NCBI GenBank assembly: GCA_005888335.1
Contig: VAWY01000157.1
Coordinates: forward strand, 1-11,871
Origin: Actinomycetota bacterium
GTDB taxonomy: Bacteria; Actinomycetota; Thermoleophilia; Solirubrobacterales; Solirubrobacteraceae
DNA length: 11,871 nt
Reading direction: 5' to 3'
Shown here: one piece after another, positions 8,592 to 11,871 of the stretch
Layout: every line of letters begins with the position of its first letter
Position numbering within the stretch: the first letter of the stretch is position 1
Notes under the pieces: generated by a model
Told to the model about the DNA's origin: nothing
Seen by the model: only the letters and a program-made list of their open reading frames with translations
Databases searched by the model: none
Translations under genes and position numbers: made by a program

Positions 8592-9029
8592 ATGCCAGGG
8601 AGCGCTCGACGTCCGAGCGTTGCCGCGGAGACGCTCTGCTGCCGGATGTCATCCAGAGCAGCGGTCTGCGAGCGCACTCCCCTATCGGTGCGCGAGCTCA
8701 TCGCCGCCGTCCGAACCGTCGCCGCGGGAGGCGTTCTGCTTTCGCCCGCCGTCACGAAACAGGTCATCAGGCAGTTCGCGAGCCGTCCGCGCGCACCGGT
8801 GCCAAGAGGTCTCGACGAGCTGACCTCGCGCGAGCAGGAGATCTTCCGACTGATCGCGCGTGGCCTCTCGAACGCCGAGATCGCGCAGGAGCTCGTCATC
8901 AGCGACTCCACCGTCAAGTCGCACATCACCCACGTCCTGCTGAAGCTCGCGTTGCGCGACCGGATGCAGCTCGTCGTGCTCGCCTACCAGACCGGTCTGG
9001 TCGAGACGGCGCGCAGCGGCCCTGCCTAA
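8592..9029 (+). CDS. 5'-truncated NarL/LuxR response regulator (output domain only)
   Basis: From ATG 8592 the frame gives 145 residues; the frame is open back to 8421 but overlaps the dehydrogenase. The part with homology begins at SVRELIAAVRTVAAGGVLLSP, the last receiver helix and linker of NarL-type regulators, then the LuxR helix-turn-helix LTSREQEIFRLIARGLSNAE and SDSTVKSHITHVLLKL, ending in VVLAYQTGLVE. The phospho-acceptor Asp and the other receiver residues are missing: only about 90 bp separate this gene from the dehydrogenase stop. No ribosome-binding site fits 8592 or the next ATG at 8646. It is probably a remnant, though a free DNA-binding domain could still act. No partner sensor kinase is next to it; the following Ser/Thr kinase is unrelated in type. 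Confidence 0.7.
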   Translation: MPGSARRPSVAAETLCCRMSSRAAVCERTPLSVRELIAAVRTVAAGGVLLSPAVTKQVIRQFASRPRAPVPRGLDELTSREQEIFRLIARGLSNAEIAQELVISDSTVKSHITHVLLKLALRDRMQLVVLAYQTGLVETARSGPA

Positions 9030-9089: not shown

Positions 9090-10952
9090 ATGGACACGAG
9101 ACCCACAGCGGACGGGCACGACCGCGAGCGGGAGCGGCTCTCTGCGGCGCTGCCCGCCTACGACATCGGCGCCGTGCTGGGGCGCGGGGCGTTCGCGGTG
9201 GTCTACGCGGGGCGCCACCGCCATCTCGAGCGCGAGGTGGCGATCAAGCGACTCGCGCCCGAGCTGCTGCGCGAGACCGGCGGGCGCGACCGCTTCGGCG
9301 CGGAGGCGCGCGTGCTCGCCTCCCTCGACCATCCGCACATCGTCAGGGTGTACGACTACGTCGACCGCGAGGACCTCTGCGCCTTTGTCATGGAGCGCAT
9401 GCACGGCGGGACGCTCGGCGACCGCCTGCGATCCGGGCGCGTCTCGTACGCATGGGCCTGCGCGGTAATCCTGGCCGCGCTGCAGGGGCTCGAGCACGCG
9501 CATCGCAAGGGGGTCCTGCACCGCGACGTCAAGCCCGAGAACCTCCTGTTCGGCGCGGACGACGTGGTCAAGGTCGGCGACTTCGGGATCGCCAAGGTCG
9601 TCGGCGCGCAGGGCGCCCGACTCGCCGCGACCACGGCGGCGATCGGCACTCCGACGTACATGGCGCCCGAGCAGGTCAGCCGCTCGGCGGGCCCGCTGGG
9701 GCCGGCCACCGACGTCTGGGCGGCCGGTGCGGTGCTGTACGAGATGCTCGCCGGCGAGCCGCCGTTCGCGCTCGACGGCGACATCGGCGAGATCCTGCTC
9801 GAGCGCGTCGCGGCCGACCCGCGACCGCTGCGCGATCTGGCGCCGGACGTGCCGGAGGAGCTCGCCGCGGTCGTCATGCGGGCGCTGGCGCGCGATCCGG
9901 CGCGCCGCTACTCGAGCGCGGCGGCGTTCGCCGCCGCGCTCGAGCCGGCGGCACTGCGCGCCGCGGACGCCAGTGATCTGGCGGCGACCGGAATACGGAT
10001 CAGCGCGGCGCCGTCAGGTCCCGGCGCCGCGCAGCCGCCGACCGTCGTCGAGCCCTTCGAGCCCGGCCGCCGGCGGACGCCGCGGCGCGCGCTGCTGGGC
10101 ATCGCGGCCGCCGCCGCGGTCGCCGCCGGCCTCGCCGCGACGATGCTGGCCTCCTCGGGCGGCCAGAGGCCGGCGCCGTCGCGTGCACCCCGGCCGGGCG
10201 CGACGGAGGAGCTGCCGCGGCCGACCCCCTGCGCAGGCTGCTACAAGCCGAAGCCGACCACGTCGCCGTGGCAGATCCAGCTCGAAGGGCGCATCGACAC
10301 CACAGTGCAGGCGCGGTTCTTCGTCATCGATGGCTCCGAGGAGGGGGACACGGTCGGAGCGCTCAGGCGTCGAGGCGGCAAGGTCGCGTGCTATGTCAAC
10401 GCCGGCGCGTGGGAAGACTTCCGCACCGACAAGGACGCCTTCCCGCCGGAGGTGCTCGGCAAGAAGTACGAGGGATTCCCGAACGAGCGCTGGCTGGACA
10501 TCCGTCGGATCGATCTGCTCGCGCCGATCCTGCGCGCTCGCATCGACGACTGCAACGCGAAGGGCTTTGACGGCCTGGACCCCGACAACCTCGACGGATT
10601 CGAGAACAACACGGGCTTCCCGCTCACTGCGACTGATCAACTGCGCTTCAACATCTGGCTGGCAAATGAGGTGCACGCGCGCGGGCTGAGCATCGGGCTG
10701 AAGAACGACCCCGCCCAGGCGCGCGCGCTGGCCCAGTACTTCGACTGGGCCATCCCGGTGGAGTGCGTCGAGCAGCGGAACTGCGGTCAATACGCGCGGT
10801 TTGGCCGAGCCGGCAAGCCGCTCTTCGCGCTCGAGTACGGCCAGCCGACGCGCAGGGCATGCACGGAAGCCCAGCGCCGGAGGATGAGCGTGGTGTTCAA
10901 GACGTCAGCCCTGAACGCGCCGCGCAGGACGTGCGCCGACGTGGGTCGCTGA
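9090..10952 (+). CDS. Membrane Ser/Thr protein kinase fused to a GH114-type endo-alpha-1,4-polygalactosaminidase ectodomain
   Basis: 620 residues in one frame. The kinase domain (about 24-285) is complete: glycine loop GRGAFAVVYAG (31-41), K53 (AIKRL), helix-C E72, catalytic HRDVKPEN (144-151), DFG (164-166), APE (192-194), D208 in TDVWAAG; PknB-like. A Pro/Ala linker and RRRTPRR (327-333) precede one TM helix (about 334-353), so by the positive-inside rule the kinase is cytoplasmic and the rest exported. The ectodomain (about 394-600) follows the GH114 (PF03537) pattern: WQIQLEG, ARFFVIDG, VACYVNAGAWEDFR (432-445), GFDGLDPDNLDGFENNTGF (492-510) with acidic D494/D497/D499, RGLSIGLKND (531-540), VECVEQRNC (557-565), ALEYGQ. 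These acidic segments are the probable active site. Start ATG 9090 has no strong ribosome-binding site; the G-loop excludes a later one. CAGC (381-384) sits in the exported stalk. Function inferred: polysaccharide-sensing or -cleaving receptor kinase. Confidence 0.9.
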   Translation: MDTRPTADGHDRERERLSAALPAYDIGAVLGRGAFAVVYAGRHRHLEREVAIKRLAPELLRETGGRDRFGAEARVLASLDHPHIVRVYDYVDREDLCAFVMERMHGGTLGDRLRSGRVSYAWACAVILAALQGLEHAHRKGVLHRDVKPENLLFGADDVVKVGDFGIAKVVGAQGARLAATTAAIGTPTYMAPEQVSRSAGPLGPATDVWAAGAVLYEMLAGEPPFALDGDIGEILLERVAADPRPLRDLAPDVPEELAAVVMRALARDPARRYSSAAAFAAALEPAALRAADASDLAATGIRISAAPSGPGAAQPPTVVEPFEPGRRRTPRRALLGIAAAAAVAAGLAATMLASSGGQRPAPSRAPRPGATEELPRPTPCAGCYKPKPTTSPWQIQLEGRIDTTVQARFFVIDGSEEGDTVGALRRRGGKVACYVNAGAWEDFRTDKDAFPPEVLGKKYEGFPNERWLDIRRIDLLAPILRARIDDCNAKGFDGLDPDNLDGFENNTGFPLTATDQLRFNIWLANEVHARGLSIGLKNDPAQARALAQYFDWAIPVECVEQRNCGQYARFGRAGKPLFALEYGQPTRRACTEAQRRRMSVVFKTSALNAPRRTCADVGR

Positions 10953-11007: not shown

Positions 11008-11273
11008 CTCATCCTCCTTGTCGTCGTCGGCTCGGGGAGAACCGGTGGGCAAACGACATCGACGGATCCGCGCTCGCAGCGCAACCGGGCAAGTCGCAGG
11101 GGCGGCCACCGAGAAACCTCGGGCTCGAAGCCCATCGTCCAAAACGGCCTGCCCAGCCTGCGTTCTCCCGAACGCCCCTCGTCCCAGTCGGCCGAACCTA
11201 AGCCCGCCGCCGGACATCACCGGGGCCTTCACCGAGCAGTTTCATGCCCCGAGATCCAGCATTGAGGAACTGA
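11008..11273. mobile_element. Probable IS110 left end (non-coding leader of the truncated element)
   Basis: This gene-free stretch lies between the IS110-type start codon and the point where flotillin similarity begins. Both neighbouring frames lose similarity at its edges, as expected if the element inserted in the flotillin gene and later lost its distal part. No terminal repeats are expected for IS110 members. The outer boundary is not resolved and could be anywhere near 11240-11280. Confidence 0.4.
11068..11176 (-). ncRNA. Candidate IS110 bridge-RNA region (structured leader of the transposase)
   Basis: Four perfect short stems crowd here: GCGCT/AGCGC (11070-11074/11078-11082), CCGAG/CTCGG (11109-11113/11118-11122), GGGCT/AGCCC (11121-11125/11129-11133) and CGTTC/GAACG (11161-11165/11170-11174). 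The second and third overlap and are alternatives. The stretch is upstream of the IS110-type start codon, where IS110-group elements encode the bridge RNA that pairs with donor and target DNA. Position and stems are seen; the RNA identity is inference, and the guide loops were not identified. Confidence 0.3.
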
Positions 11274-11588
11274 CGCTCGAGCTCCGCCGAGGCCGACGCC
11301 GGGGCGATCAACGCCCGTGCGCAGTCGCTGTCGGGCGAGAACCAGGAGCTCATCGCGGCCAACAAGCTCGTCGACATGCTGCCGGCGCTGGTCGAGGCGG
11401 CGGCCAAGAGCATCGAGGGCTCGCGGCTGACCGTGCTCAATGGCGCGCAGGGCGTCAACGAGGTCGCGACCGGGATGGCCGCGCAGGGGCTGTCGATCTA
11501 CGACGCGCTGCGCGGGACGTTCGTGCACCGCGAGCACGGGACGGCGAACGGCGCCGCGCCGGCCGAGGAGCAGCCGGCGAGCCAGTAG
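11274..11588 (+). pseudogene. C-terminal fragment of a flotillin/SPFH-family protein
   Basis: The frame after a stop at 11271-11273 runs 104 codons to TAG 11586-11588. It contains AEADAGAINARAQSLSGENQ, ELIAANKLVDMLPALVEAAA, then SRLTVLNGAQGVNEVATGMA and GLSIYDALRGTF: the end of the flotillin coiled-coil stalk followed by the conserved C-terminal oligomerisation segment 'ANKLVxMLPxLVxAAA...LxVLNGxxGVNxV..GxAAQGLSI'. The last ~20 residues are Ala/Glu/Gln-rich. The SPFH domain and membrane anchor are absent, so the gene is cut at its 5' side. An internal ATG at 11376 could give a 70-aa piece but lacks a ribosome-binding site. Flotillins scaffold membrane microdomains and often interact with signalling proteins. 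Confidence 0.7.
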
Positions 11589-11704
11589 GAGCGGTTGTGC
11601 TTCTCAGGGTCCGCGTGCCGAGCGTGCCCGTGGGAGCGACGCCTTGCCGCGGCGCGACCCCGCGTTGGCGCTGGCGGCTCCGGTCGCCTACGCTCGATCC
11701 GGCG

Positions 11705-11871
11705 ATGGTGCGCATCGGCCTGCTGGGCGGCTTCGCGGTCCAGTGCAACGGGACCGCGGTCCCGCAGGGCGCAGGGCGCCTGGCGCCTGCGCAAGGCGCG
11801 CAGCCTCGTCAAGCTTCTCGCGGTGGCGCCCGGTCACACGCTCCACCGCGAACGCGCGTGCGAAGTGCTTT
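11705..11871 (+). pseudogene. Start of an AfsR/SARP-type (BTAD) regulator, frameshifted, 3' partial
   Basis: ATG 11705 opens MVRIGLLGGFAVQCNGTAVP, the first strands of the OmpR-like winged helix found at the head of SARP/BTAD regulators. Similarity then moves to the +1 frame: GAWRLRKARSLVKLLAVAPG followed by HTLHRERACEVL to the window edge, the 'WRLRKAxxLVKLLALAPGHxLHRExxxxxLW' signature. The two halves join in frame if one copy of a 7-bp tandem repeat (GCAGGGC at 11764-11770 and 11771-11777) is removed. As written, the first frame reads into an unrelated Pro/Arg-rich frame. No clear ribosome-binding site is seen. The gene continues beyond the window, so full domain content is unknown. Confidence 0.75.

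Follow-up and report, generated by a model that had tools for sequence, protein, structure and literature searches.

Gene layout and domains

The window analyzed here, an 11,871-nucleotide stretch of contig VAWY01000157.1 from an Actinomycetota bacterium of the family Solirubrobacteraceae, contains at positions 9090-10952 of the plus strand a single uninterrupted open reading frame (ORF) of 620 codons, which encodes both a serine/threonine (Ser/Thr) kinase and a GH114-type barrel. The kinase motifs of this fused ORF are intact, the GH114 fold is assigned with confidence, the nucleophile Asp of the family is kept and its acid/base Glu is lost. The features of the gene and the basis of their assignment are as follows.

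9090..10952, plus strand: whole gene, 620 amino acids (aa), kinase, transmembrane (TM) helix, stalk and GH114-type domain (ORF list, translation)
9159..9926, plus strand: Ser/Thr kinase domain, residues 24-279, catalytic motifs intact (Pfam PF00069, motif positions)
10089..10151, plus strand: single TM helix, residues ~334-354, with RRRTPRR just before it (hydropathy peak at residue 335)
10152..10265, plus strand: stalk, residues 355-392, Pro-rich, with Cys381-x-x-Cys384 (sequence)
10269..10916, plus strand: GH114-type barrel, residues 394-609 (Pfam PF03537)
10476..10478, plus strand: F463, column of the Ega3 loop-tip Trp154, aromatic kept (alignment to Ega3 chain)
10584..10586, plus strand: D499, column of the Ega3 nucleophile Asp189, kept (alignment to Ega3 chain)
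10758..10760, plus strand: V557, codon GTG, column of the Ega3 general acid/base Glu247, lost (alignment to Ega3 chain)

A Pfam search of the translation placed PF00069 at residues 24-279 (E 5.7e-53), and K53, E72, HRD (144-146), DFG (164-166) and APE (192-194) make up a complete kinase domain. No PASTA domain was found in the search of the 620-aa protein, and the PASTA kinase equivalog NF033483 scored 246.8 bits, below its cut-off of 450, over residues 24-289 only. The match to PF03537 (GH114) at residues 394-609 (E 2.4e-67; 227 bits, cut-off 27) covers positions 2-228 of the 231 in the profile; the GH114 domain is complete, and the computed assignment of the ectodomain to the GH114-type barrel fold is confident. 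The two-domain receptor architecture proposed in a preliminary description, with every kinase motif in one frame and a GH114 ectodomain, is borne out by these matches, and all GH114-like motifs listed there are present. That description would have been abandoned had the C-terminal domain shown no GH114 match; a complete match was seen.

The single TM helix between kinase and ectodomain was judged by hydropathy. The most hydrophobic 19-residue stretch begins at residue 335, directly after RRRTPRR, in agreement with the one helix with a basic inner flank described previously. Since the hydrophobic stretch follows this basic segment, the kinase probably lies inside the cell and the GH114 domain outside.

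Active site of the barrel

The passages of PMC12054363 that deal with Ega3 give Asp189 as its verified nucleophile, Glu247 as the verified acid/base and Trp154 as a residue at the tip of a loop. One offset of 24 between this numbering and the PDB chain puts all three on the expected letters, and D499, V557 and F463 align with Asp189, Glu247 and Trp154, respectively. The alignment around V557 is gap-free and is anchored by one Trp and two Cys residues common to Ega3 and the window protein.

Conservation was followed in three sets: 125 high-scoring segment pairs (HSPs) from 119 other homologs (among the best 120 of 830 matches to the GH114 half), 30 GH114 loci from the order of genome G056, and 17 further loci, 13 of them new places. 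Column 557 holds Glu in 124 of the 125 HSPs from the listed homologs; the lone His is found in a P0007 repeat with departures at 5 of the 37 most conserved columns. Glu is likewise present in 30 of 30 order loci and in 17 of 17 further ones (4 of which are repeats), that is, in 43 of 43 distinct places. Asp occupies column 499 in 124 of 125 HSPs and in all 30 order loci. On this alignment, V557 is a substitution that strikes catalysis, at a near-invariant column. Of the acids named in the preliminary description, D499 does stand at the nucleophile position, but E558 does not stand at that of the acid/base, which is V557.

A member of GH114 as a catalytic family has a nucleophile Asp, here D499, and an acid/base Glu, here replaced by V557. 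Because the latter is missing, the protein, judged by its sequence, is homologous to GH114 but is not filed as a GH114 enzyme; its place is among the bacterial receptor Ser/Thr kinases.

Surroundings and relatives of the gene

Upstream, at 8650-9028, lies a LuxR-type DNA-binding domain (GerE, E 1e-18) for which no receiver was found and whose start looks cut off. Downstream, the reading at 11271-11588 looks like the C-terminal end of a flotillin, with a Pfam Flot match (E 0.008) of 16.7 bits that falls short of the 27-bit cut-off and with its N-terminal part not in frame, and 11704-11871 holds the start of a regulator-like reading that by eye continues in another frame, through a sequence error or in a broken gene.

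Proteins were searched with the GH114 half (best 120 of 830 matches) and with the whole protein (best 120 of 1855 matches; 7996 candidates scored), and among the matches listed in both searches only P0001 has both Pfam domains. Another protein of 374 aa, P0121, comes from a source without contigs and is identical to the window protein over ~240 residues; after that it reads the window DNA starting at 10151 in a different frame, differing at two of 139 residues. An internal deletion combined with a shift of frame links kinase DNA and GH114 DNA of the locus in P0121, which is either a variant of that locus or a product of its assembly.

No match spanning kinase and GH114 was found among those listed for the 149 genomes of the class of G001, where at most 8 candidates were scored per genome. 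The best listed kinase match in this class was 47%, and since the closest kinases of the window protein did not turn up in the sampled genomes, the result is no proof that the fusion is absent elsewhere. In the order of G056, GH114 was detected in 56 of 232 genomes (63 matches), and no kinase was seen beside it in the 43 distinct places inspected out of these 63; the 30 order loci extend ~1.5 kb beyond the match, a few of them less. A scan of contigs for relatives was limited to the best 80 of 579, and as a control the kinase query recovered 80 of its 80 loci. Among plasmids, 808 records matched, none of them reaching 80% query coverage at a single place.

Several candidates were tried and rejected. 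A match to residues 254-617 in G113 looked like a fusion, but the kinase was not found there; kinase matches running past residue 384 in G139, G105, G146 and G126 had no GH114 in any case; and the class of G255 was dropped as a center (0 of 148). No paper on a GH114-kinase fusion, as judged from the listing, and none on a Solirubrobacter kinase with an extracellular domain was found in the open-licence literature.

The closest counterparts of the kinase half are Solirubrobacteraceae receptor kinases of the same clade such as P0123, 58-66% identical over ~370 residues of kinase, juxtamembrane segment and TM helix. They differ in the ectodomain, which is another, unannotated domain predicted to form a clan GH-A-like barrel. 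This alternative ectodomain (P0123 residues 366-759; P0239-P0358) has no Pfam or NCBIfam name and is a predicted TIM barrel (P0247 model). It occurs attached to kinases as well as in proteins that gave no kinase match; among 118 kinase proteins tested, 38 have it, 37 of them from the whole-protein search listing and the other being P0257. In the sampled genomes a kinase was nearby at 0 of 29 loci, and the idea of a kinase linkage there was dropped; the linked form is known here from protein lists alone. Position 157 of this barrel is Glu in 92 of the 93 rows P0266-P0358, and Glu (22), Asp (10) or Arg (1) in 33 long kinases; position 307 is Trp in 91 of the 93 rows, with Glu (21) and Asp (8) in the 33 kinases. 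Such conservation is suggestive of an active site at these two positions, and no activity is claimed. Also belonging to the same large clade are the related kinases P0157 and P0162, whose ectodomain is neither GH114 nor the alternative barrel; that of P0162 resembles by eye a carbohydrate-binding beta-sandwich.

As to the GH114 half, many GH114 frames in the inspected loci start, by eye, like lipoproteins or secreted proteins. A Cys pair like Cys381/Cys384 precedes the barrel in L132 and in one stand-alone GH114 gene of L086, whose border is similar ('C-x-x-C-x-K-P ... PW') and which reads 'TEECV' at the place of 'PVECV' in the window protein. L086 (G132:C22:64095-66206) holds two adjacent GH114 genes in one genome, with differing N-terminal extensions. 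GH114 trees leave the placement of the window barrel unsettled, its branch being long.

A putative non-cleaving receptor kinase

We favor, with a probability of roughly 55%, a single-pass receptor Ser/Thr kinase whose GH114 barrel has turned into a non-cleaving, polysaccharide-binding sensor, its target being a polymer of the biofilm type. A domain selected to bind and not to cut would be expected to look like this, with the acid/base lost and the remainder of the site preserved. The barrel cleft would hold a cationic galactosamine-type chain (Pel-like or galactosaminogalactan (GAG)-like), on which the aromatic-tipped loop would perhaps close; without the acid/base, cleavage would be blocked or very slow, and the ligand would therefore stay bound. 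Binding may then alter the spacing or pairing of stalks and bring two kinase domains together, leading to trans-autophosphorylation and an output inside the cell. A cationic galactosamine polymer appears the most likely type of ligand, since the cleft of these families is described in part of PMC12054363 as mostly negatively charged and suited to such polymers. A Pel-like polymer in the surroundings is plausible, given that pel loci occur in actinobacteria, according to an excerpt of PMC7112168.

A number of points weigh against this interpretation. The fusion is known from one contig, and the same architecture, which the preliminary description had suggested seeking in other genomes, did not recur among the matches listed or in all 190 loci, of which 53 have GH114, 108 have a kinase and none has both. 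Genes on both flanks look truncated, and the G+C content at third codon positions (GC3) drops modestly, from 0.94 in the kinase part to 0.88 in the GH114 part. The same points speak for a chimera, in which the assembler joined a kinase and a GH114 domain from different DNA molecules. We consider this quite improbable, as the join is in frame and lies between complete modules, following the TM helix and preceding the barrel, the P0001 cluster has 13 member sequences (by cluster count alone), and P0121 also joins DNA of both halves. Also unfavorable is that the barrel departs at three (528, 557 and 578) of 65 columns conserved at at least 95%, exactly three departures being seen in 3 of 125 HSPs and fewer in 116. 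With the broken look of the neighbors and a long end branch in GH114 trees (1.29 and 1.17; medians 0.14 and 0.16), one might think of a decaying gene whose ORF is drifting, V557 being one of its changes. But the 620 codons are uninterrupted, GC3 stays at 0.82-1.00 in every 40-codon step, conserved columns are kept and three order-level homologs have comparably long branches, which makes decay very improbable. F463 and V528 were rejected as signs of it, both occurring among the 30 order loci (column 463: Y 18, W 9, F 3; column 528: A 24, V 6), as was L578, a mild change, though all 30 have Val there.

It is further conceivable, if unlikely, that the protein is an active enzyme-receptor, which senses a galactosamine polymer by catalyzing its cleavage, or a tethered hydrolase controlled by the kinase, with E558 as acid/base or V557 as an error. 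The nucleophile, D499, is preserved along with nearly all conserved columns, and an acid is present next door to V557. Since the protein comes from a single contig and the codon GTG differs from a Glu codon by a single base, V557 may reflect an error in the sequence or a rare allele. However, column 558 is Gln in 23, Glu in 6 and Ser in 1 of the 30 order loci, and varies among Asp, Gln, Ser, Glu and others in the 125 HSPs; the six relatives with E558 retain E557 beside it, so that in these the catalytic role does not fall to 558. Adjacent residues at the end of a strand usually point opposite ways, which also counts against E558 as acid/base. Sensing by binding, one of the functions proposed in the preliminary description, is favored, while cutting and a kinase-controlled tethered hydrolase, its other proposals, are disfavored because Val stands in place of the acid/base Glu at a near-invariant column.

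If the barrel is indeed a binding sensor, the GH114 module, probably from a secreted GH114 protein, would have replaced the ectodomain of a Solirubrobacteraceae-type receptor kinase. More tentatively, and at slightly less than even odds, receptor kinases of one actinobacterial lineage may have an exchangeable ectodomain slot for glycosidase-fold barrels, a GH114 barrel having here been captured, disarmed by the Glu-to-Val change and put to sensing Pel- or GAG-like polymers, as an independently evolved counterpart of the tobacco chitinase-related receptor-like kinase CHRK1. To our knowledge, many bacterial receptor kinases have no known ligand; an outer domain of known sugar specificity makes the ligand question of this kinase a direct GAG/Pel binding test. 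A disarmed barrel would be a clean enzyme-to-receptor case, parallel to CHRK1 and RsgI6, and the unannotated barrel family indicated by the sister kinases may follow the same principle on a larger scale.

With the GH114 endo-alpha-1,4-galactosaminidases Ega3 and FsGH114 the protein shares a homologous domain and fold, the nucleophile Asp and a similar loop-tip aromatic residue; it differs in the Val at the place of the acid/base Glu and in the attachment of the barrel to a TM helix and a kinase. In an excerpt of PMC6213207, the ectodomains of bacterial receptor kinases are described as PASTA or propeller domains. PASTA and PknD-type kinases are likewise single-pass Hanks-type kinases with an outer sensor, but this consists of PASTA repeats or a propeller and not of a glycosidase barrel. 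CHRK1 is a receptor kinase with a GH18-type ectodomain, said in part of PMC10573068 to be without chitinase activity for want of a Glu; an excerpt of PMC5485988 describes the domain as predicted enzymatic, so the literature is not uniform, which weakens the parallel. Being a plant protein with a GH18 domain, CHRK1 is not homologous as a whole and is a functional analogue only. RsgI6, an anti-sigma factor of Clostridium thermocellum, has a GH10 sensor of very low activity that retains binding, according to an excerpt of PMC4711584; it too is a bacterial transmembrane sensor with a polysaccharide-binding glycosidase domain, but its output is a sigma factor rather than a kinase and its ligands are xylan and cellulose. 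As a non-cleaving sensor, the window protein would act like CHRK1 and RsgI6 but belong to neither.
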